Position numbers and translations under genes: made by a program. The notes below the pieces were generated by a model that searched no databases, was not told where the DNA came from, and saw only the letters and a program-made list of their open reading frames with translations. A stretch of 45,783 nucleotides of DNA from Propionicimonas sp. (lineage in GTDB: Bacteria; Actinomycetota; Actinomycetes; Propionibacteriales; Propionibacteriaceae): contig JAOATP010000160.1 of NCBI GenBank assembly GCA_030158185.1, positions 1-45,783 on the forward strand. The letters are read 5' to 3'. Of this stretch, positions 11,099-23,946 are shown piece after piece. How positions within the stretch are numbered: the stretch's first letter is position 1; each line of letters opens with the position of its first letter.

Positions 11099-11932
11099 TC
11101 AGAAGTCCTTGCTGACCTTCAGGCTGCCCTTCAGGTCGGGCACGTCGGCGAGCAGGCGCTTGGTGTACTCGTTCTTCGGTTCGAAGATGACCTCGTCGGT
11201 CGTGCCGCGCTCGACGATCAGCCCGTGTTCCATCACGACCACCTCGTCGGCCAGGTAGCAGGCCTGCCCGATGTCGTGGGTGATGAACAGCACGGTCAGC
11301 CCGAGGTTCTCCCGCAGGTCCTGCAGCACGTTCAGGGCGCTCACGCGCAGCGAGGCGTCCAGCATCGAGGTGGCCTCGTCCGCCAGCAGCACCTTTGGGT
11401 TCATCATGAGCGCGCGGGCGATCATCACACGTTGCCGCTGGCCGCCGGAGAGCTGGTGCGGGTACTTGTGCACGGCGTCGCCGGGCTTCAGCCCGACGTA
11501 GCCGAGGCAGGTCTCGATCAGCTGCTCGAGGGTCTCCTTCTCCAGGCCCTGCGCGCCCATCCCGCGACGGAGCGTCTGCCCCACCGTGTAGAACTGGTTG
11601 AACGAGGAGAACGGGTCCTGGAAGACGGCCTGCACGTCACGCCAGTACTTGCGCAGCTCGGCGCCCTTGATGTGGGTGACGTCCTTGCCCTGGTAGCTGA
11701 TCGTCCCGCTGGTCACCGGCATCAGCCGCAGCAGCATCCGTGCCAGCGTCGACTTGCCGGAACCGGACTCGCCGACGACAGCCAGCACCTTCCCGGCGTG
11801 GAAGTCGACACTCACGTCATCGACAGCAGTGATGTGACCACCGGACACCCGGAACTGCTTGGTGACATGGGTGGCAGAGAGCACGGGCTGGCCGACGGCC
11901 GGGCGCGCCTCGAGGGAGTCTTTGTCACTCAT
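11099..11932 (-). CDS. ABC importer ATPase, OppF/DppF type
   Basis: 277 residues, second ATPase of the Opp/Dpp-type importer. Walker A GESGSGKS (about 54-61), signature LSGGQRQR (161-168), Walker B VLLADE (181-186), H-loop in FITHDIGQACYLADEVVVM. The C-terminal oligopeptide-importer extension is short, as usual for OppF partners. Its ATG overlaps the TGA of the OppD-type gene by four bases, indicating translational coupling. Works as a heterodimer with that ATPase on the cytoplasmic face. Confidence 0.9.
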   Translation of the reverse strand: MSDKDSLEARPAVGQPVLSATHVTKQFRVSGGHITAVDDVSVDFHAGKVLAVVGESGSGKSTLARMLLRLMPVTSGTISYQGKDVTHIKGAELRKYWRDVQAVFQDPFSSFNQFYTVGQTLRRGMGAQGLEKETLEQLIETCLGYVGLKPGDAVHKYPHQLSGGQRQRVMIARALMMNPKVLLADEATSMLDASLRVSALNVLQDLRENLGLTVLFITHDIGQACYLADEVVVMEHGLIVERGTTDEVIFEPKNEYTKRLLADVPDLKGSLKVSKDF

Positions 11933-12957
11933 GCCTTGTACACCTCCATCGGGACGGTTTCGTACGCGTGGTCATTCGCCCACCAGCAGGCCACCTCGTG
12001 GTCGCGCTCGTTCAGGAACTTCGGCTCCTCGACCTTGCACACGTCCATGGCGAACTGGCACCGGGGGTGGAACCGGCACCCGCTGGGCGGGTTGCCGAGG
12101 TTGGGCGGCGAGCCGGGGATCCCGAGGACGTGCTTGGTCCTCGTCTCCTCGGTCGGGTCGAGCACGGAGGACAGCAGCGCGGACGTGTAGGGGTGCCTGG
12201 CGTTGTTCACCAGTTCCTCCGTCGGCCCGTTCTCGACGATCTTGCCCGCGTACATGATGGCCAGCCGGTCGGTGACCATCGAGAGCACCGGCAGGTCGTG
12301 GGTGATGAAGATCACGCCGCGCATGATCTTCTTCTCGACCATCGCCAGCAGCATCTCGATGAGCGCCTTCTGGCTGGACACGTCCAGGGCCGAGGTCGGC
12401 TCGTCCGCGATGAGCAGCTTCGGGTTGAGCAGGGTGGAGACCACCGTCACCATGCGCTGCTTCATGCCGCCAGACAGTTGGTGGGCGTAGGAGTCGAGCA
12501 CCCGGGTGGGCATCTCGAGCATCTTCAGCCGGTCCGTCGCCCGGTCCATGGCCTCCGCGACCGTGGTGTCGCGCTTGTGGGCGCGCATCACGTCGATGAC
12601 AAGGTTCTTGACCTTCAGCGTGGGGCTGACGGCGTTCATCGCGCCTTGGGGAAGGAGGGAGACGGTGGAGCCGCGATACGGGCGGTGGGCCTCGTTCGAA
12701 CCACGCGCCAGCGTGCTGAGGTCGATCTCCTCGTCGTCGATCTCCATCTTGCCCGCGACAACGTAAAGCGGCGGGTTGGCGATCATGGCGAGGGCGTTGC
12801 CCATGGTCGTCTTGCCACACCCCGACTCGCCGGCGAGGCCGACGATCTGGCCCTCCGGGACCTCGAGGGTGACGTTGTCGACAGCGGGCACGTCCTGCCC
12901 CGAGTCGGCGGCGTAGACGGCCGTCAGGTTGCTGGCCCGCATCAGGATGCTGGTCAT
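11929..12957 (-). CDS. ABC importer ATPase, OppD/DppD type
   Basis: 342 residues. Walker A GESGCGKT (about 43-50), signature LSGGMKQR, Walker B LLIADEPTSALD, then the C-terminal oligo_HPY region with four cysteines (CRFHPRC, MDVC, ACWW). That Cys pattern is conserved in OppD proteins, and in the mycobacterial homologue it holds an iron-sulfur cluster, to my knowledge. ATG 12957 overlaps the end of the upstream permease gene by four bases; the longer frame to 13149 is a shadow of that permease. Energises uptake together with the OppF-type protein. Confidence 0.9.
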   Translation of the reverse strand: MTSILMRASNLTAVYAADSGQDVPAVDNVTLEVPEGQIVGLAGESGCGKTTMGNALAMIANPPLYVVAGKMEIDDEEIDLSTLARGSNEAHRPYRGSTVSLLPQGAMNAVSPTLKVKNLVIDVMRAHKRDTTVAEAMDRATDRLKMLEMPTRVLDSYAHQLSGGMKQRMVTVVSTLLNPKLLIADEPTSALDVSSQKALIEMLLAMVEKKIMRGVIFITHDLPVLSMVTDRLAIMYAGKIVENGPTEELVNNARHPYTSALLSSVLDPTEETRTKHVLGIPGSPPNLGNPPSGCRFHPRCQFAMDVCKVEEPKFLNERDHEVACWWANDHAYETVPMEVYKA

Positions 12958-14003
12958 GCGTTCACCTCCACGGGTTGGTTCTCGGCGAGCTTGCGCGCGG
13001 TCTCTGCTCGCCGCGCGGCTGCCTTGGCAAGGTTCTTCTTCTTGCCGCGCCGCAACCTGGGGTTGAACACCTCGTCGAGCGAGGACTGCAGGTAGAGCAA
13101 GCCGAAGCTGATCATGGTCAGCACGATCGTCGGGGGCAGGAAGGCCCACCAGGCGCCCGTGGCAACGGCCTGGAAGGCCAGTGCCCAGAACAGCTGCTTG
13201 CCCAGGGAGTTCGCGCCCGACGGGCCGAGGCCCAGCATCGAAAGGGTCGATTCGGCGAGGATCGCGCTGGCCAGCTGGAGCACCCAGGCCATCACGGCGT
13301 AGCTGGCAAGATAGGGCAGCACATCGCGGACCATGATGCTCGGGGTGCGGGCACCGGAGAGCTTGGCCACATCGATGTGTTCTCGCGTCGCCACCGAGCT
13401 CGCCTGGGCTCTGACGGCTCGCGCCGTCCAGGGCCAGGACGTGATGCCGATCACCAGGGCGAGCCCTACGGCGCCCTTGAGGAACGGCACATTGGTGCTC
13501 TGCAGCGAGATCGAGATCAGGATCAGGATCACGATGGACGGGATCGCCAGCACGATGTTGGTGAAGCCCATCAACAGCTCCTCGACCCAGCCGCCGACAT
13601 AGCCGGCCAGGACGCCGATGGCAACGCCGATTACCACAGCGATGGTGCCGGCAAGGAGGCCGATGATGATCGAGGTCCGGGCGCTCGCCATCAGCACGGC
13701 GAGCACGTCGTAGCCGAAGTTCTCCGTGCCAAGGACGTGCTCAAAGGTCGGCGGGGTGTTCATCCAGGTGGGGTAGTCGTACAGCGATCCCACCTTCTCG
13801 TCCGGCCCGAACGGGTAGAACAAAGGGCCGATGAAAGCCAGCGCGGCAACGAAGCCGATGATGCCGAGCGCGATCCACATGCGTGAGCCGAAGTTGAGGC
13901 TGCGCCAGCCCGGCTTGGCCTTCTTTGGTTCGGTGGGCAGGCCCACCGGAACCAGCGGGCCCTCCGCCTCCGCGACAACGGCACTGCTAGAGATGTTCGT
14001 CAT
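12954..14003 (-). CDS. ABC importer permease, OppC/DppC type
   Basis: 349 residues. A charged cytoplasmic N-terminus, first membrane helix near WIALGIIGFVAALAFIGPLFY, a periplasmic stretch, then about five more helices. The coupling loop (EHIDVAKLSGARTPSIMVRDVLP) is the EAA-type sequence that docks on the ATPase. The C-terminal 35 residues are strongly Lys/Arg/Ala-rich. ATG 14003 has GGGGAGA seven bases upstream and lies one base from the stop of the preceding permease gene. Confidence 0.9.
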   Translation of the reverse strand: MTNISSSAVVAEAEGPLVPVGLPTEPKKAKPGWRSLNFGSRMWIALGIIGFVAALAFIGPLFYPFGPDEKVGSLYDYPTWMNTPPTFEHVLGTENFGYDVLAVLMASARTSIIIGLLAGTIAVVIGVAIGVLAGYVGGWVEELLMGFTNIVLAIPSIVILILISISLQSTNVPFLKGAVGLALVIGITSWPWTARAVRAQASSVATREHIDVAKLSGARTPSIMVRDVLPYLASYAVMAWVLQLASAILAESTLSMLGLGPSGANSLGKQLFWALAFQAVATGAWWAFLPPTIVLTMISFGLLYLQSSLDEVFNPRLRRGKKKNLAKAAARRAETARKLAENQPVEVNA

Positions 14004-14004
14004 A

Positions 14005-15012
14005 TCACTTCTCCCCGGACTTCGATGCACGGATCCGCGGGTCGATGAAGCCGTAGAGGATCTCGACCATGTAGTTGGCGACCAGCACCGCGATAGTGAT
14101 GAGCAGGGTGACCGCCTGGATCACCGGGTAGTCGCTGGAGGAGATCGCGCCGAACAGCAGCGATCCCATTCCGGGATAGCTGAACACCAGTTCGGTGATC
14201 AGCGCTCCGCCGACCATCGTGCCGATGCTGAGCGCGAGGCCCGTGATCTGGGGAAGCATGGCGTTGCGGAAGATGTAGCCGGTCATCTTGCGATCCCCGA
14301 TACCCAGGCTCCGTGAGTAGTTCACGTAGTCGGATCCCAGTTCGTAGATGGCCATCGAGCGCATACCGACGGCCTGCCCGCCGATGTTGATCAGCACGAG
14401 CGAGGCGAACGGCAGCCACCAGTAGGAGAGGGCGTCGGAGAAGAACGCCCAGCTCCACTCCGGGGAGGTTCCGAGGGAGTAGGCACCGCCGACAGGGAAC
14501 CAGCCGAGCACCACGGCGAAGACGTAGAGCAGGATGATCGAGAGGCAGTAGTAAGGCGTCGAGTTGAACAACAGGGCTGTCGTGAACACCGACTTGTCCC
14601 AGCCGCCGCCCTTGTAGGCAGCGATGGCGCCAAGCAGGTTGCCGATGATCCAGCCGAGGACGATGGCGGGAAGTTGGAGTGCCAGGGTGTACGGCACGGA
14701 TTGGGCGATGAGACTCGACACGGGGGTGGGGTAGAACGAGAACGATGCCCCGAAGTTCCCGTTGAACACCCCTGAGATGTACAGCAGGAACTGGTCCCAG
14801 ATCGGCTTGTCAAGGCCGAACTCCCTCATGAATGCCTCATACGTCCTTTGCTGGGCCTCGGAGGAAAGTCCTCCTTGGCCCATTTTCGAGACCAGCACGT
14901 CGACCGGGTTACCCGGGATGAGTCGTGGTAGCACGAAGTTCAGAACTACGGCTACCACGAGCGCACCCAGATACCAGACGGTCTTGTTGGCCAGATAGCG
15001 CCGTAGACCCAT
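14005..15012 (-). CDS. ABC importer permease, OppB/DppB type
   Basis: 335 residues, six predicted membrane helices beginning with VWYLGALVVAVVLNFVLPRLIPG. The characteristic N-terminal periplasmic part with GLDKPIWDQFLLYISGVFNG precedes the core, and the EAA coupling loop is YVNYSRSLGIGDRKMTGYIF. ATG start with AGGAAAG about eleven bases upstream. Pairs with the OppC-type protein to form the pore. 32 nt downstream of the binding-protein gene. Confidence 0.9.
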   Translation of the reverse strand: MGLRRYLANKTVWYLGALVVAVVLNFVLPRLIPGNPVDVLVSKMGQGGLSSEAQQRTYEAFMREFGLDKPIWDQFLLYISGVFNGNFGASFSFYPTPVSSLIAQSVPYTLALQLPAIVLGWIIGNLLGAIAAYKGGGWDKSVFTTALLFNSTPYYCLSIILLYVFAVVLGWFPVGGAYSLGTSPEWSWAFFSDALSYWWLPFASLVLINIGGQAVGMRSMAIYELGSDYVNYSRSLGIGDRKMTGYIFRNAMLPQITGLALSIGTMVGGALITELVFSYPGMGSLLFGAISSSDYPVIQAVTLLITIAVLVANYMVEILYGFIDPRIRASKSGEK

Positions 15013-15044
15013 GGCAATCCAACTTTCCTAGAACGGTCGCTGAC

Positions 15045-16853
15045 TCAGCCGGCGATCTTCTTGATCTTGTACATCCAGGTGTTGCCGGCGCCACGGAACA
15101 TCGGCGGGGCGTAGCTGTTCTTCTCGTCGGGCCAGTTGAAGAAGTTGCTGGCGTTGTACTCGTAGAACTCGTCCGGCCGGTACATGATCGGGCAGGCGGG
15201 AACCTCGGTGCGGTACAGGGCGTCCAGCTTGTCGTACGCGGCCTTCTTCGTGGCGTCCTCTGTGGCCTGCGAGGCCTCGGTGAGGAGCGCCTCGACCGTG
15301 TCGTTCTTCCAGCGGCCGTAGTTGGCGAAGGTCGTCTTGCCGATCGGCTGCACCTCGGACTGGCTCATGATGTCCTTGAACCGGGCCCACGGGGTGGCCG
15401 GGTTCACACCGGACACGTACCAGACAGCCATGTCGAAGGTGCCGCCCTGGATCGACTGGGTGGTCTCCGCCTGCTGCGGGAAGTTGGTCGAGCAGTCGAT
15501 GCCGATGGCCTTCAGGCTCTTCGCGATGATCTCGCAGGATGCGTTCCAGTCGGTCCAGCCGGTCGGGGTGATCAGCTTGAACGGGCCGAGGCGGGTGCCG
15601 TCGATGACGTAGACGCCATCGCTGCCCTTCTTGGCGCCGGCATCGGTCAGGATCTTCTCTGCTGCAGCCGGGTCGTACTTCCAGCCGTTGGCCTTGGCGT
15701 CGTCGGCGTTGAAGAACTTGCCCTCTGCACCGGTCGGCAGGATCAGGCTGGGCTGAACCTCGGCGGAGTAGCCCGACATCGCAGTCTCTGCGATCGACGC
15801 GTAGTCGATGGCGGAGGCGATCGCCTTGCGGACGGCCTTGTTGTCGAGGCCCTTCTTGGTGGTGTTCATCAGCAGCATCGGCATGCTGCCAGGAACGAAG
15901 TAGGGCTTGTCCTTGAGGTAGGTGCCGACCGGCTTGCCACCCTCCCACATCTTCCAGATCTGGGAGACGAACTGCTGCATGATGTCCAGCTCGCCGGCCT
16001 GGAACTTGATGTTGCCGTCCTCGTTGGACTTGAAGATCGGGTGGATGATCTGCTTGACCACCGGCAGGCCGCCGTAGAAGGTCTTGCCCCAGTAGTTCTC
16101 GTTGAGGGCCAGCACGACCTGGGTCTGGTCGGCCTTCGTGAGCGTGAAGGGGCCGGTGCCGATCGGCTTGTCCATGATCTCGGTGGGCAGCTTGTCGTCG
16201 GCGATCTTGCTGAAGACGCTCATCGGCAGGATGTAGGTCTCGGTGAGCAGCCGCAACAGGTTGCCCACGTTCTTGGTCTTCTGGCTGACGGTGACGACAA
16301 CGGTCTTGTCGTCAGGCGCGGTGACGGCGTCTGCCGCCTGCCAGAACGCGTTCCGGGAGATACCGGTGTTCTTCTTGCCGAGTTCGAAGTTGGCGGCGAC
16401 GTCAGCGGCGGTCAGTGCCGAGCCGTCGGAGAAGGTGACGCCGTCCTGCAGGGTGAGCGTGACGGTCTTGGTGCCGTCGAGCTTGTACTCCTTGGCAAGG
16501 CCCGGCATGACCTCACCGGTGGCGATGTTCCAGCGGAGCAGGGTTTCGTAGGTGATCTGCATCACGTTGGCTGCTGCGGGCCACGCAGCGGTCGGGGCGA
16601 GCGGGTTGAAGGTCGCCGGGGCGCCCCACTGGAAGCCCGCGATGAAGAGGGTGTCGGCCGTGGCGCCGGTACGGCCCTTGCCGACCTGGCCGTTGTTGCC
16701 CACGCCGAGCTTGGCCTCTGTGCCACCGGTTGCACCGGTGGAGCCGGTGCTGGCATTCGGTGCACACGCCGCGAAGGCGAGGCCACCGATCGCCAGGCCG
16801 CCGATCGTGATGAACGCGCGGCGAGACGGCTGCTGGAAGACGGAATCTGACAT
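15045..16853 (-). CDS. ABC importer substrate-binding lipoprotein (SBP_bac_5), Tat type
   Basis: 602 residues, family 5 binding protein as used for peptides but also for oligosaccharides. The N-terminus PSRRAFITIGG followed by a hydrophobic stretch and FAAC (Cys30) combines a twin-arginine signal with a lipobox, so the folded protein is probably exported by Tat and anchored by lipidation. Family motifs include GTGPFTLTKADQ and LNENYWG. ATG 16853 has AGGAGG seven bases upstream; the much longer frame upstream is a shadow of the mannosidase gene. Neighbouring GH genes suggest beta-manno/gluco-oligosaccharides as ligand rather than peptides (inference). A hairpin at 16936-16955 separates it from the mannosidase gene. 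Confidence 0.92.
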   Translation of the reverse strand: MSDSVFQQPSRRAFITIGGLAIGGLAFAACAPNASTGSTGATGGTEAKLGVGNNGQVGKGRTGATADTLFIAGFQWGAPATFNPLAPTAAWPAAANVMQITYETLLRWNIATGEVMPGLAKEYKLDGTKTVTLTLQDGVTFSDGSALTAADVAANFELGKKNTGISRNAFWQAADAVTAPDDKTVVVTVSQKTKNVGNLLRLLTETYILPMSVFSKIADDKLPTEIMDKPIGTGPFTLTKADQTQVVLALNENYWGKTFYGGLPVVKQIIHPIFKSNEDGNIKFQAGELDIMQQFVSQIWKMWEGGKPVGTYLKDKPYFVPGSMPMLLMNTTKKGLDNKAVRKAIASAIDYASIAETAMSGYSAEVQPSLILPTGAEGKFFNADDAKANGWKYDPAAAEKILTDAGAKKGSDGVYVIDGTRLGPFKLITPTGWTDWNASCEIIAKSLKAIGIDCSTNFPQQAETTQSIQGGTFDMAVWYVSGVNPATPWARFKDIMSQSEVQPIGKTTFANYGRWKNDTVEALLTEASQATEDATKKAAYDKLDALYRTEVPACPIMYRPDEFYEYNASNFFNWPDEKNSYAPPMFRGAGNTWMYKIKKIAG

Positions 16854-16935
16854 TGAGTTCCTCCTGTTGACTGGCCCCGCTCCGGGGTCACTTGGTGTTG
16901 TTTGAGTCTCCGTTGACTGACGTTTGGTTGAAGGT

Positions 16936-16955
16936 GCCCGGCGCGAGGACCGGGC
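16936..16955 (-). terminator. Weak hairpin between mannosidase and binding-protein genes
   Basis: GCCCGG at 16936-16941 and CCGGGC at 16950-16955, six pairs, in the 110-nt gap after the mannosidase stop. It could set the expression ratio or protect the abundant binding-protein message. No T run. Confidence 0.3.
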
Positions 16956-16963
16956 CTGCGCGC

Positions 16964-19546
16964 TCATCTCTCCCGGGCGGCTCCGAGGGCGAGCGGGACG
17001 GTCAGGGAACGCAGCACCGTCGGGCAGGTGAGCTGCGACAACTCGATGCCCTCGAGGTCGCCTGCGACGTCGAAGGTGTGGGATTCGCCGGGGAAGAGGT
17101 CGACCATCATGGTGTCGGTCGTCGCATCCTCCGCGACGCGGTCGGCGAAGAGGCACAGTGTCCGCAGGAAGCTGCCCGCCACCACCGTCACGGCTGCGCC
17201 GGTTGCCGTCGCCGAGGCTGTCGCTTCGAGGACGGGTGCAGGGATCGCAGCAGCGGCGTCCTCGACGAGGAGCTGCACGAGCCGCTCGGCGCCGCGGACG
17301 GTGACGACGAGGGCCAGATCGTCGGTCGGGCCCTCCGGGACGGGCACGACCACTGCCACGTCGGTCCGCGCGCGGACCGGCACGACGGCGTCCACCGGCA
17401 TCGACCAGAGCACCTCGCCGGAGAGGCGCCGCAACTCGACCTGGCCGGTGGCCTTCCAGTCGGCGACGCTGTCGTTGACCAGCGCAAGGCGCCATCCCGT
17501 CGACTCAGCCTTGAGGACGGCGACACGGTCCGCGTAGGCGGAACGCACCGCGTACCACAGCGGCTTGCGACGGGCGACCGGTGCCCCGGCGGCGTTGGTG
17601 CCCAGGTCGAGCGCAGCCCAGGACGTCACGGGCCAACAGTCGTTGAGCTGCCACACGATGGAGCCGAGGCAGCGTCCGCGCAGTGAGCGCCAGCGGTCGA
17701 TGCCGTAACGCACGGCCCGTGCCTGCTGCAGCTGCATCGCGAACAGCCACTCGTCGAAGTCGTCGATGCCCTCACCGGGTGCGGGCAGGTGGCCGACGAT
17801 GCCGTTGTTGAGCTTGGTGTTGCCGCCGGCCGCCTTCTGGTGCGCGAGCATCGTCGCGGAGGTGGCGCTGCGGTCCTCCGGCGCGAGGGTGCGCGCCCAG
17901 GTGGCGTACGTGGCCGGGCCCTGGTAGCCGAACTCGCTGACGAACCGCGGGGAGTAGGCGTCGTAGCCGGTGTAGTCGCGTTCGTTCCAGACGTCCCAGA
18001 TGTGCACGCAGCCGTAGTTCGGGTCGTTGGGGTGCAGGCCCTTGGCGACCTCCTCCGGACCCGACGACGGGCTGCCGGGCCAGTACGGACGGGACGGGTC
18101 GAGCTCTGCAACGATCTTCGGGAACAGGTCGTAGTAGTAGCCGGCACCCCACGTGCGACCTTCGAGCTTGTCGGCCCAGTTCCAGTCGTGGAAGCCCCAG
18201 ATGCACTCGTTGTTGCCGTTCCAGACCACCAGCGAGGGATGCGCGGACAACCGGATCACGTTGTCGCGGGCCTCCGCCTCCACCTCGAAGCGGAAGGGCT
18301 CCTCCTCGGGGTAGGCGGCACAGGCGAGGCAGAAGTCCTGCCAGACCATGACGCCCAGCTCGTCGCAGGCCTTGTAGAAGTCCGCCTGCTCGTAGATGCC
18401 ACCACCCCAGATGCGCAGGAGGTCGACATTGGCGTCCTTGGCCTGCTGCACCCGCTCGCGGTAGCGCTCTGCGGTGATCCGGCTCGGGAAGCAGTCGTCG
18501 GGGATCCAGTCCATGCCGCGGACGAACACCAGTTCGCCGTTGATCCGCAGGCCGAAGGTCTCTCCGGCGCCGTCGGCGTCCGGGGTGGTGTCGAGCTCGA
18601 TGCTGCGGAAGCCGGTCTCGCGTTGCACCTCGTCGAGCACCGCGACATCGTTGTGCAGCATCACGTCGACGGTGTACATCGGCTGGTCGCCGAGGCTGTG
18701 CGGCCACCACGGCTCGATGTCGCTGATCGGTATGACGATTTCCGTCCAGTCCTCCGCCGGCGTCGCCGCCTCTGCGTTGGCCTGGGTTGCGTCGGCCCCG
18801 TGCACCCGCACGGTGAGCGCTGCGAAGCGGGTGCTTCCCGCCACATGGACGTGGACGCGCAGCTCGCCGTCCCAACCGCCGGAGCCGTTCGGGGTGGCGG
18901 TCGCGAACACAGCGACGTCGGTGATGCGGGCGGTGTCCCAGCTGCGAAGGCCGATGGTCTTCCAGATGCCGGCGGTGATGAGCCGTGGTCCCCAGTCCCA
19001 GCCGAAGTTGCAGGCCATCTTGCGGACCAGGTTGTACGGGTCGCGCTCGACGTGGATCCGCTCGCCGACGAGGGCCGCCATGAACGCGGTGTACTCCAGC
19101 ACGGGTGCGAAGGTGACCTCGATGACGTTCGTCCCGGCCCGGAGCAGGCTGCCGACGGTGAAGATGTTGCGGCGGTGCATGTTCACGGAACTGCCGACCG
19201 GTGTGCCGTTGCAGAAGACTTCAGCGATGGTGTCGAGGCCGTCGCACAGGAGCTCGCAGTTGTCGGACTTCAGTTCCTCGGCGTAGGCGGCCAGGTCGAA
19301 TTCAGCACGGTAGGTCCAGGCCTGCTGGCCCACCCAGTGCTGGTCGGCCTCTGCGGCGCCGAGGTAGGGATCATCGATCAGGCCCTCTGCCAGCAGGTCG
19401 GTGTGCACCACACCGGGCACGGTGGCGGGGATGCCCGAGGCGAGTTGGTCACGCAGGGCTTCGGGCACCGAGCTCCAGCCCTGGGCGGACGCATCCGCGC
19501 GGACGGTCCACGTGGCCTCAGCCAGATCCAACCAACCTTGCCCCAC
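16964..19546 (-). CDS. GH2 beta-mannosidase
   Basis: 860 residues, typical length. Domain order is the GH2 sugar-binding sandwich, immunoglobulin-like domain, TIM barrel and C-terminal beta domains. CNFGWDWGPRL (about 179-189) is characteristic of beta-mannosidases. Acid/base Glu447 is in WNGNNE and nucleophile Glu538 in FVSEFG. No signal peptide: cytoplasmic exo-enzyme releasing mannose from beta-linked manno-oligosaccharides. GTG at 19546 has AAGGAGG four bases upstream, which fixes the start. First gene of the sugar operon; a LacI-type operator-like site lies about 110 nt upstream. Confidence 0.93.
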   Translation of the reverse strand: MGQGWLDLAEATWTVRADASAQGWSSVPEALRDQLASGIPATVPGVVHTDLLAEGLIDDPYLGAAEADQHWVGQQAWTYRAEFDLAAYAEELKSDNCELLCDGLDTIAEVFCNGTPVGSSVNMHRRNIFTVGSLLRAGTNVIEVTFAPVLEYTAFMAALVGERIHVERDPYNLVRKMACNFGWDWGPRLITAGIWKTIGLRSWDTARITDVAVFATATPNGSGGWDGELRVHVHVAGSTRFAALTVRVHGADATQANAEAATPAEDWTEIVIPISDIEPWWPHSLGDQPMYTVDVMLHNDVAVLDEVQRETGFRSIELDTTPDADGAGETFGLRINGELVFVRGMDWIPDDCFPSRITAERYRERVQQAKDANVDLLRIWGGGIYEQADFYKACDELGVMVWQDFCLACAAYPEEEPFRFEVEAEARDNVIRLSAHPSLVVWNGNNECIWGFHDWNWADKLEGRTWGAGYYYDLFPKIVAELDPSRPYWPGSPSSGPEEVAKGLHPNDPNYGCVHIWDVWNERDYTGYDAYSPRFVSEFGYQGPATYATWARTLAPEDRSATSATMLAHQKAAGGNTKLNNGIVGHLPAPGEGIDDFDEWLFAMQLQQARAVRYGIDRWRSLRGRCLGSIVWQLNDCWPVTSWAALDLGTNAAGAPVARRKPLWYAVRSAYADRVAVLKAESTGWRLALVNDSVADWKATGQVELRRLSGEVLWSMPVDAVVPVRARTDVAVVVPVPEGPTDDLALVVTVRGAERLVQLLVEDAAAAIPAPVLEATASATATGAAVTVVAGSFLRTLCLFADRVAEDATTDTMMVDLFPGESHTFDVAGDLEGIELSQLTCPTVLRSLTVPLALGAARER

Positions 19547-21304: not shown

Positions 21305-23905
21305 CTAGACGGTCGTGGTTGAGCCGTCCTCGGCGGTGGCTGTGATCGTGAAGGCTTCCGCTGCGAGGTCGGCGTCGAGGGTGGCGGTGAGCCCACCCCG
21401 GCTCCAGGTGATCTGCAGCGTCTGGGGGCTGGTCTCGGCAACCTCGCAGGTCGCGTCGAAGCCGAACGCGCCGAAGGTGTTGCGGAACCGCAGCAGCTCC
21501 AGCTGGCGGGTGACCACCGGCTGCGCCAACCCGGCGGTGATGGCCTCGTCGGACAGGTTCGTGCGGTTGATCTCCTTGTGCCCGCCCTCCCCGGCGCGTT
21601 CGACGGCGGCATGGTCGTTGCGGCCTGCGAACAGGTCGAGGTACCAGACCTGCGGCTTGCCCGGGATGAACAGCTGGATCGCGCGGGCCAGCAGCAGCCG
21701 CGCCTCGCTCTCCCCCAGAGCGCTGAAGTAGGTCGCGTTCACCTGGTAGTAGATGTTCTTGGCCCCGTGCAGGTCCTTCACATAGCCGCCGCGGCCCTTG
21801 ATGGTCGCGATGAGCGCCTGGATGCGCTCCTCGGGCAGGAGCCCCTTCAGGTCGAGGACGGGGATGCCGTCGTGGCAGCCGAGCATGTTCACCGTCCGGA
21901 TCTGCCGTCCGAGCAGTTCGCCGACCCACCGCTTCAGGACGGACGCGTCCGCGTTCTCGAAGGCGTCGATCACCAGCCCCGGCAGGAAGAAGTCGTAGGT
22001 GAGGAAGCCCTTGGCTGCGATGGTCTCGTGGATGCCCTCGGCGTAGGTGGAGTGGATCTCGGGGAGCAGCTTGAGGCCGCGACGGTCGGCCAGTGCCTTC
22101 ACCTGCGCCAGCAGGTCCCATGTCCCCGGGTCGTTGAGGAAGTTCTTCAGCCCCGGTTCCTTGGGTGCGTACGCGAACGCGTCCAGCCGGACGATTTGCG
22201 CCCCGTAGGCGGCCAGCTTGTCGAGGGTGTCGGCGTAGAAGTCCCAGACCAGCGGGCTCTTGATGTTGAGGTCCATCTGGCCGAGGTAGCGGCGGCGCGA
22301 CTCGACCAGGTCGACCACGCGGCCGCGCACGGCCTCGTAGCCGGTGAAGTCGGCGTCGACCGGCCGTCCACCCGAACCGAGGACGGTGGCGAGCCGGCCG
22401 GCGAGCACCTCGGCCGTGCCGTACTGCAGGCCGGTGGCCGCCATCAGGTCCTGGGTGTCAGGGACGGTGTAGCGCACCTCCTGGTAGAAGGTGTTCCAGT
22501 ACGGCTTCTCGCTCCCGTCCGGCAGGCGCACCATCAGGATCGGCAAGCCCGGCTTGCGGAAGAACATGTCCTTGATCAGCTCGGGACGCGGCTCGACGTA
22601 GCCATCGGGGGTGAGTTCGCCGTTGCCGGACCAGAACGCGTTCCAGTCGATGAAGAAGTCGGCGTACGCGGAGCGTTCACCCCTGGCGATGATGTCCTGG
22701 AACTGCGGTGAAAGCACGGACGCGTGGTTGAGGATGAAGTCGAACGTGAAGTCGATACCCTCCTCAGCGAGCGCGGTGATGTCGTCACGCGTTGCGAACT
22801 TCTCGCTCAGGTCGTAGTCGATGACCGAGAACCCACGGTCGAGGTCGGTGTTGAAGACGCTCGGCAGCAGGTAGGCGGAGCTGAACACGTCCTTCAATTC
22901 CGGACGGCGCACGAAGGCGACCAGGTCGGCGAGGGTGCCGCCGATGCTGTCGGGGTAGACGTTGAGCATGGTGCCGGCCGCGGGCAGGTCGGCGCCCATG
23001 GCCTTCAGGTACCCGTCGTAGTCGAGCAGTTCCCCGGAGCGGGCAACGATGATCGCAGCGCCGGCGGCGCGTGACCGCAGCCGTGCCTGTTCGAGTTCGA
23101 GCACCATCGTCGTGAACGGGCTGTCGACGGCGCCGTCCCTGCTGCGGGCCCTGCGGTGCGCCAGCGTCTCCTCGGGGGTGCTGTTCAGCAGGATCGGGAT
23201 GTCGACGCCGACGAGGTGCTCGTTGTTGCCGTGCGTCCACTCGACGACGATCACCTGGATGGCCGAGACGTCCACCTCGTCGTACCAGAGGGCGTCGGCC
23301 GTGCGTCCCATCCGTTTGAGCAGCAGGGTGTCCGCGCCGTCACGGAAGGCGGCGAGGATGCGGTTGATCTCGTCGAAGTCCACCTCGTCGGGGGTGCCGA
23401 GATAACCGGCCAGCGCCTTCCGTCCGGCCTTCTGGTAGATGGCCAGCCAGGGATGTGCAGCCACCTGTCGCGGGTCGGCGTCACCGTCGGTTGCCTGCAG
23501 CGCCGCCAGCGCAGAGCGGACGGAGGCGTCATACGCGCGCCTTGCGACCAGGCCCTGGACGCCACCCACGCGGAAGGTGCGCAACCGTTCGGCGTCGTTG
23601 GCGGACGGGACGCGACGCGGGTAGTTGTCGCCGGAAAGGACGTACGCGCTGACGCCGAGGGCGTTCAGCCCATGTGCCAGCAGGGACCCGGTCTCGGACT
23701 TCCCGACGCCGGAACCACCATGGACGGAGACGACCGCCCTGTGGTGCGGGCTGGCTGCGAGAACCGGTTCCAGGAGGCGCCACAGCTCCGGGAAGATGCT
23801 GCGCGCCGCGGCGACGTGGCCGGGCGTGATCTGCACCTTGTCGCCAGGCATGTCCCCTGTGGGAACAGCGTTGAGATCCGTTGCCTCCGGGAAGCTCACG
23901 TCCAT
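21305..23905 (-). CDS. Fusion of P-loop kinase domain and GH13_18 sucrose-phosphorylase-like domain
   Basis: 866 residues. Residues about 25-300 are a P-loop kinase domain of uridine-kinase/adenylylsulfate-kinase-like type: Walker A GGSGVGKS (63-70), LSGDNYPRR (90-98), LKRMGR, LWYDEVD and VEWTHGN (221-227). Residues about 310-866 are a GH13 subfamily 18 domain: nucleophile Asp575 in RLDAFAYAPKEPG, acid/base Glu616 in LPEIHSTY, stabilising Asp679 in GCHDG. All catalytic residues of both halves are present. An insertion of roughly 50 residues (about 490-540) precedes the nucleophile. GH13_18 enzymes phosphorolyse alpha-glucosides such as sucrose, glucosylglycerol or glucosylglycerate to glucose 1-phosphate. 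The kinase could phosphorylate the released acceptor or the substrate itself (inference). ATG 23905 has GGAGGG six bases upstream. Cytoplasmic. Confidence 0.85.
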   Translation of the reverse strand: MDVSFPEATDLNAVPTGDMPGDKVQITPGHVAAARSIFPELWRLLEPVLAASPHHRAVVSVHGGSGVGKSETGSLLAHGLNALGVSAYVLSGDNYPRRVPSANDAERLRTFRVGGVQGLVARRAYDASVRSALAALQATDGDADPRQVAAHPWLAIYQKAGRKALAGYLGTPDEVDFDEINRILAAFRDGADTLLLKRMGRTADALWYDEVDVSAIQVIVVEWTHGNNEHLVGVDIPILLNSTPEETLAHRRARSRDGAVDSPFTTMVLELEQARLRSRAAGAAIIVARSGELLDYDGYLKAMGADLPAAGTMLNVYPDSIGGTLADLVAFVRRPELKDVFSSAYLLPSVFNTDLDRGFSVIDYDLSEKFATRDDITALAEEGIDFTFDFILNHASVLSPQFQDIIARGERSAYADFFIDWNAFWSGNGELTPDGYVEPRPELIKDMFFRKPGLPILMVRLPDGSEKPYWNTFYQEVRYTVPDTQDLMAATGLQYGTAEVLAGRLATVLGSGGRPVDADFTGYEAVRGRVVDLVESRRRYLGQMDLNIKSPLVWDFYADTLDKLAAYGAQIVRLDAFAYAPKEPGLKNFLNDPGTWDLLAQVKALADRRGLKLLPEIHSTYAEGIHETIAAKGFLTYDFFLPGLVIDAFENADASVLKRWVGELLGRQIRTVNMLGCHDGIPVLDLKGLLPEERIQALIATIKGRGGYVKDLHGAKNIYYQVNATYFSALGESEARLLLARAIQLFIPGKPQVWYLDLFAGRNDHAAVERAGEGGHKEINRTNLSDEAITAGLAQPVVTRQLELLRFRNTFGAFGFDATCEVAETSPQTLQITWSRGGLTATLDADLAAEAFTITATAEDGSTTTV

Positions 23906-23946
23906 GGGTCGCCCTCCGTGCTCACAAGCTCGTCCACGATTTCAGC

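Follow-up and report, generated by a model that had tools for sequence, protein, structure and literature searches.

A predicted sucrose kinase-sucrose 6F-phosphate phosphorylase fusion in Propionicimonas and its recurrence in other bacterial genomes

A kinase and a phosphorylase in one reading frame

The window (the whole stretch of DNA analyzed here, 45,783 nucleotides of contig JAOATP010000160.1 from Propionicimonas sp.) contains a single 866-codon open reading frame that starts with ATG and encodes an intact P-loop kinase followed by an intact GH13_18 phosphorylase (Table 1). This two-domain architecture agrees with the initial annotation, which had also placed the Walker A motif, LSGDNYPRR, VEWTHGN, Asp575, Glu616, and Asp679 correctly in every case. 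The predicted structure of the full-length protein had a pLDDT of 90.2 and a pTM of 0.80. No second match of the fused type was found in the window's own genome.

A leucyl aminopeptidase gene (M17) lies 246 bases upstream on the same strand. Downstream of the fusion we found a convergent beta-propeller ORF, a TatA-like ORF, and then a GH2 enzyme with an oligopeptide-type ABC transporter. Since its neighbors are aminopeptidase, beta-propeller, and TatA-like ORFs, the fusion is outside any sugar operon in the window, which we count against the reading of the protein proposed below. The GH2 glycosidase gene and the oligopeptide-type ABC genes that follow it (binding protein, two permeases, and ATPase; 11929-19546, minus strand) are likely to form an uptake operon.

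Table 1. Features of the predicted fusion gene (positions in the window; residues numbered from the ATG)
Feature	Position	Strand	Basis or remark
Whole gene, predicted sucrose kinase (N-terminal)-sucrose 6F-phosphate phosphorylase (C-terminal) fusion	21305..23905	-	866 aa; same fusion in other genomes
Kinase domain, residues 1-303; pantothenate kinase/uridine kinase/phosphoribulokinase fold group	22997..23905	-	
Walker A GGSGVGKS, residues 63-70	23696..23719	-	Kinase alignment
LSGDNYPRR, residues 90-98	23612..23638	-	Asp93 invariant, 122/122 rows
VEWTHGN, residues 221-227	23225..23245	-	Glu222 and Thr224 invariant, 122/122 rows each
GH13_18 phosphorylase domain, residues 304-866 and stop	21305..22996	-	
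Helical insertion of ~54 residues before the nucleophile, about residues 479-532 (approximate limits)	22310..22471	-	
Asp575, nucleophile (= IcSPP Asp223)	22181..22183	-	Alignment
Glu616, acid/base (= IcSPP Glu264)	22058..22060	-	Alignment
Asp679, transition-state stabilizer (= IcSPP Asp327)	21869..21871	-	Alignment
Loop A region, residues 710-721, Lys710 (= IcSPP Lys364) and KxxYYQ 716-721	21743..21778	-	Alignment; motif as described in PMC7178133
GGAGGG, probable ribosome-binding site	23912..23917	-	Read from sequence; ends 6 bases before ATG

The phosphorylase domain

The phosphorylase half belongs to GH13 subfamily 18 by its fold and its catalytic Asp, Glu, and Asp. Its best match in the PDB is 6S9U, the sucrose 6F-phosphate phosphorylase (SPP) of Ilumatobacter coccineus (IcSPP), with 292 of the 507 aligned residues identical (58%). 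The alignment pairs Arg450, Lys710, Tyr720, Gln721, and Lys777 of the window protein with Arg152, Lys364, Tyr377, Gln378, and Lys434 of IcSPP, residues of the fructose 6-phosphate site that are described as probed by mutation or, for Gln378, by docking (PMC6720575). Arg450, Lys710, the motif KNIYYQ at residues 716 to 721, and Lys777 reproduce the site of the strict sucrose 6F-phosphate phosphorylases, i.e., the clade of IcSPP and RgSPP, and homology to these two assayed enzymes makes phosphorolysis of sucrose 6F-phosphate a well-supported prediction for this domain. Fructose 6-phosphate is the sole acceptor reported to be used by IcSPP, for which more than 30 acceptors were tried, and by RgSPP. 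One option put forward in the initial annotation, that the kinase phosphorylates a free acceptor (fructose, glycerol, or glycerate), is rejected because this strict site is fully kept. The window protein scored 316.7 bits against the sucrose phosphorylase model TIGR03852 (cut-off of 334.4 bits), a weak test given that RgSPP (the L145 copy), which is not a sucrose phosphorylase, scores 353.3 bits.

The nine catalytic and substrate-site residues were complete in 93 of the 99 distinct kinase-linked phosphorylases, a set that excludes two fragments below the score limit, both cut at a contig edge (L043 and L078). Five of the other six are cut by a contig end, and one from a metagenome assembly (L064) has an internal deletion over the acid/base. 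A second GH13_18 type was seen in genomes of the same genus (L020:1030-2481, L021:925-2358, and L030:973-2514). Its acceptor positions hold Pro, Ser, PHQ, and Arg, and the short stretch seen around it contained no kinase.

The insertion of about 50 residues before the nucleophile is real, since 66 residues separate NTFYQ from GQMDLN versus 12 in the I. coccineus enzyme. Its suggested role as the interface between the two domains did not hold: 39 of the 52 distinct unfused phosphorylases have the insertion, and 6 of the 47 distinct fused ones do not. The insertion thus occurs with or without fusion and is ruled out as a fusion interface.

The kinase domain

Taken alone, the window kinase scored above no Pfam or NCBIfam cut-off. 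It gave no match at E<=0.1 to PF00485 (phosphoribulokinase/uridine kinase; gathering score of 22 bits), a model passed by the RgSK domain (32.9 bits) and by the Ilumatobacter kinase (26.8 bits). The predicted structure of the domain (pLDDT of 92.8) showed fold similarity to the pantothenate kinase/uridine kinase/phosphoribulokinase group. A phosphorylase-led search returned two Lachnospiraceae loci (L143 and L145) in which the phosphorylase is preceded by an ORF of 932 or 942 residues. Residues 8 to 727 of the L145 ORF match the GH36 half of Ruminococcus gnavus AgaSK (2YFN) almost exactly, and its C-terminal domain, which corresponds to RgSK, is 36% identical to the window kinase over 251 aa (E=1e-50). 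The Walker A, SGD.YP, and EWTHG motifs of the two align, placing the window kinase by homology among the AgaSK-type sucrose kinases. It is most likely an AgaSK-type domain and is predicted to phosphorylate sucrose with ATP. RgSK, the isolated domain of R. gnavus E1, is reported to phosphorylate sucrose with a Km of 1.0 mM (PMC7688924).

Neither half of the fusion consistently loses its catalytic residues among its homologs, a possibility that the initial annotation had raised against itself: Lys69 is present in all 122 rows of the kinase alignment (in which the window is included twice and duplicates are retained), and the phosphorylase site is intact in the 93 sequences mentioned above. Position 94 is Asn in 115 of the 122 kinase rows and Asp in RgSK, which also lacks the residues corresponding to about 111 to 156 of the window protein. 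The kinases of two fused proteins (L015 and L016) are without some 40 residues (about 117 to 156), a helical segment likewise absent from RgSK-type kinases, which therefore seems dispensable. Another ORF, of 722 residues (L146:5699-7864, minus strand), carries the kinase domain at residues 433 to 720, after a serine hydrolase/beta-lactamase-like domain. This N-terminal domain matches PF00144 (E=3.1e-45), and its best NCBIfam match, methyl acetate hydrolase, is below the cut-off; the protein is perhaps an esterase-kinase fusion adjoining the phosphorylase.

Proposed reaction

The window protein is probably a bifunctional enzyme of sucrose catabolism, whose kinase would make sucrose 6F-phosphate and whose GH13_18 domain would cleave that same compound. 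We favor this reading because the kinase is homologous to a sucrose kinase, the strict SPP site is kept, and the pairing of the two activities is nearly universal in the sampled genomes (see below). The sucrose would be imported from outside. In the first step, the kinase domain would convert sucrose and ATP to sucrose 6F-phosphate, with the phosphate on the fructosyl C6, and ADP. In the second, the GH13_18 domain would convert sucrose 6F-phosphate and Pi to glucose 1-phosphate and fructose 6-phosphate via a covalent glucosyl-Asp575 intermediate. The net reaction would be sucrose + ATP + Pi -> glucose 1-phosphate + fructose 6-phosphate + ADP. Both activities are assigned to the window protein from the homology of each half, and the fructosyl C6 is deduced, against the literature, from the specificity of the partner phosphorylase. 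Of the options in the initial annotation, phosphorylation of the disaccharide before its cleavage is thus the best supported, by the strict SPP residues and by the homology to sucrose kinase.

The kinase could instead act on the product, converting fructose 6-phosphate to fructose 1,6-bisphosphate or free fructose to fructose 6-phosphate, and thereby pull the phosphorolysis forward. A phosphofructokinase is described in the SPP cluster of T. thermosaccharolyticum (PMC6521584), and some members of the fold group act on sugars or sugar phosphates, for example phosphoribulokinase and the "putative fructose transport system kinase" 3c8u. We nevertheless find such a role quite unlikely, as sucrose is the substrate of the nearest characterized kinase domain, and a kinase of free fructose would be senseless beside a phosphorylase that does not release free fructose.

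Kinase and phosphorylase genes are paired

Outside the actinobacterial clade of fusions, kinase and phosphorylase are mostly encoded by separate genes. In all 53 unfused pairs, the kinase precedes the phosphorylase on the same strand, with -14 to 263 bases between the kinase stop and the phosphorylase match. Stand-alone kinase homologs beside GH13_18 genes, which the initial annotation had proposed to look for, were found in Clostridia and in other Actinomycetota. In an even draw of 391 Clostridia genomes (kinase cut-off of E<=1e-20), centered on a genome known beforehand to be a carrier (G060), the kinase was found in 14, and all 14 had the phosphorylase directly downstream or fused to it (13 of 13 without G060). 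These comprise G060, G275, and G221, with adjacent genes, and G266, with a fusion (also in the Lachnospiraceae draw), and ten others in which the genes are adjacent. Starting from the phosphorylase, a GH13_18 match at E<=1e-60 was found in 24 of 299 Lachnospiraceae genomes (G060 included), 23 of which have the kinase adjacent or fused. The protein of the exception (G318) scores 788 bits as an ordinary sucrose phosphorylase.

Seven of the 396 Actinomycetota genomes matched the phosphorylase at E<=1e-60. Four of them, including that of the window, encode the fusion, and the other three have a divergent kinase gene of 232 to 238 residues directly upstream. ORFs resembling phosphoribulokinases and uridine kinases are found in this position at L167:7456-8151 (+), L168:10268-10972 (-), and L169:10532-11245 (-). 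The first, of 232 aa, precedes the IcSPP gene, and the other two precede close relatives of IcSPP. Since one of the three unfused genomes (G479) carries what reads as IcSPP after the kinase gene, the crystallized enzyme also appears to have a kinase partner. The paper on IcSPP uses "kinase" a single time in its main text, with a different meaning (PMC6720575).

Among the best 80 loci (of 364), one ends at a contig edge (L097), and one kinase (L083) is followed by an unrelated gene, which we count against the main reading. A tblastn search found no phosphorylase after this kinase within the 1.5 kb still covered by the contig. The gene that follows (L083:5893-6900, plus strand) starts MSKLKIGIIGCGGIA and looks oxidoreductase-like by eye.

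The neighborhoods of the 56 unfused loci contain an ABC permease of the commonest cluster (27 loci), a LacI regulator (14), and a GH36 alpha-galactosidase (10), the clusters being named by Pfam from their representatives only. The GH36 cluster, present in 12 of the 97 loci examined, and the fusion of the L146 kinase to a serine-hydrolase-like domain would fit a pair acting on another sugar phosphorylated on its fructosyl unit, for example an oligosaccharide of the raffinose family or a fructoside, acylated or otherwise. This seems very unlikely: IcSPP and RgSPP are strict for sucrose 6F-phosphate and fructose 6-phosphate, the same site is kept in the window protein, and a substitution on the glucose would be expected to block subsite -1.

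Recurrence of the fusion

A search of 60 genomes revealed the one-ORF fusion in 18 of the 59 others, and 39 of the best 80 loci kept among 364 relatives in the named collection were fused. All the loci gathered contain 64 fused ORFs, corresponding to 47 distinct sequences. Judging by record titles, the fusion is carried by isolates, among them Tessaracoccus caeni HF-7, Propioniciclava tarda DSM 22130, Propioniciclava soli, Propioniciclava sinopodophylli, Propionicicella superfundia DSM 22317, and Propionibacterium sp. oral taxon 192 F0372. An assembly or sequencing error joining two genes is ruled out, as the single ORF recurs in many genomes, some of them from isolates. One contig (L052), assigned to a metagenome assembly of Corynebacterium, encodes a fusion almost identical to that of P. 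sinopodophylli (L055), and this assignment is probably a binning error.

On quickly built trees of 98 phosphorylases and 100 kinases (with several long rows and SH-aLRT as the sole support), at least four changes between the fused and unfused states are required, counted irrespective of direction. Both trees place the actinobacterial fusions in a single clade of 41 rows (SH-aLRT of 99 for the phosphorylase and 98 for the kinase). The fusion of Propionibacterium sp. oral taxon 192 (L084) is inside this clade by its kinase and outside it, on a long branch, by its phosphorylase. All remaining fusions trace to the Lachnospiraceae draw or record, namely L142 with L150, L149, and, on the kinase tree alone, L093. 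A Mantel comparison of kinase and phosphorylase distances gave an r of 0.74, which is not counted as evidence because linked genes share their history regardless. The recurrence of the fusion itself argues for sucrose 6F-phosphate as the product of the kinase.

Sources of phosphorylated sucrose and position of the phosphate

PTS permeases were found in 25 of the 30 genomes of the genus, including that of the window, which makes a PTS a conceivable source of phosphorylated sucrose. A GH32 match was present in 13 of the 30, again including the window's own genome, and the fusion therefore need not be the only sucrose route. Fusion and GH32 invertase showed no mutual exclusion in the genus, several genomes having both. 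None of the 30 genomes had a sucrose-phosphate synthase over the curated cut-off, and the weaker matches in 28 of them are taken as generic glycosyltransferases. On this basis, sucrose synthesis is rejected as a source of sucrose 6F-phosphate in the genus.

The 2011 AgaSK paper is said to have been the first to assign the position of the phosphate. In print, AgaSK puts the phosphate on the glucose C6 of sucrose rather than on the fructose C6, which goes against our reading; the 2020 paper names the product S6P, identified "by mass spectrometric analysis" (PMC7688924). A sucrose phosphate of the glucose-C6 type should not serve as a substrate for a strict phosphorylase. RgSK and the fused kinases may differ in position specificity, given their identity of 36% and the Asp in place of Asn94; both differences, together with the missing residues at about 111 to 156, are counted against the main reading. 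The alternative is that the fused kinase phosphorylates the glucosyl unit as in AgaSK, while the phosphorylase works separately on sucrose 6F-phosphate from the PTS or the environment. This would agree with the published product, with the frequency of PTS permeases in the genus, and with the statement that the components of the R. gnavus locus "could operate independently" (PMC7688924). It gives no reason for the recurrent fusion or for the 14 of 14 adjacency in Clostridia, and the strict acceptor site is intact in the kinase-linked phosphorylases, apart from the six that are truncated or deleted. We consider it unlikely and retain sucrose 6F-phosphate, made and cleaved by the same protein, as the preferred reading.

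Comparison with characterized systems

Each half of the fusion has a characterized relative: the kinase domain of RgAgaSK on one side, and IcSPP and RgSPP on the other. RgAgaSK (R. gnavus E1; GH36-sucrose kinase, with the GH36 half in 2YFN/2YFO) has a kinase of the window's family and is, as proposed for the window fusion, a bifunctional enzyme of sucrose metabolism, its gene being followed by an SPP gene. Unlike in the window protein, its kinase occupies the C terminus, behind a galactosidase, the phosphorylase has a gene of its own, and the published product carries the phosphate on the glucose C6 instead of the proposed fructosyl C6. IcSPP shares all the catalytic and tested fructose-6-phosphate-site residues with the window protein but is stand-alone, lacks the 54-residue insertion, and has its separate, divergent kinase gene upstream (L167). 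The strict RgSPP (L145 copy) is 61% identical to the window domain and has the same loop A motif; it is also stand-alone and without the insertion. The promiscuous TtSPP (6S9V) is a GH13_18 enzyme catalyzing the same reaction, but it is described as having GFDVHQ in loop A and acting on sucrose too, and its operon as including a PTS and a phosphofructokinase. Sucrose phosphorylases (e.g., 1R7A) share the GH13_18 fold and the -1 subsite at ~30% identity, whereas they act on sucrose and are reported to have another loop A motif.

The clustering of a kinase with SPP genes has been noted (PMC6521584 and PMC7178133), so the pairing is already known for gut loci of the R. gnavus type. A kinase-GH13_18 phosphorylase fusion is not described in the titles or abstract starts of the open-access literature searched, and the statement in the initial annotation that no characterized enzyme has this architecture holds within that scope. 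As far as these searches tell, the fusion, its recurrence, the extent of the pairing across phyla, and the kinase beside IcSPP are new.

Implications

On balance, we lean toward a broader reading in which the strict SPP clade represents one dedicated, ATP-driven, PTS-independent sucrose pathway via sucrose 6F-phosphate. The models for R. gnavus, with phosphorylation on the glucose C6 and independent or imported sucrose 6F-phosphate, would then be wrong or incomplete, and the two steps would have been fused repeatedly, with separate events in actinobacteria and Lachnospiraceae and perhaps a hand-over of the intermediate. The origin of sucrose 6F-phosphate has so far been unknown, and an enzyme of the sucrose kinase family fused to its consumer suggests a source. 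The fusion makes the regiochemistry of the kinase testable with a single purified protein and, if active as read, could be used as a biocatalyst to make glucose 1-phosphate and fructose 6-phosphate from sucrose in one pot. If this is true, a single polypeptide would turn sucrose directly into two glycolytic phosphates.
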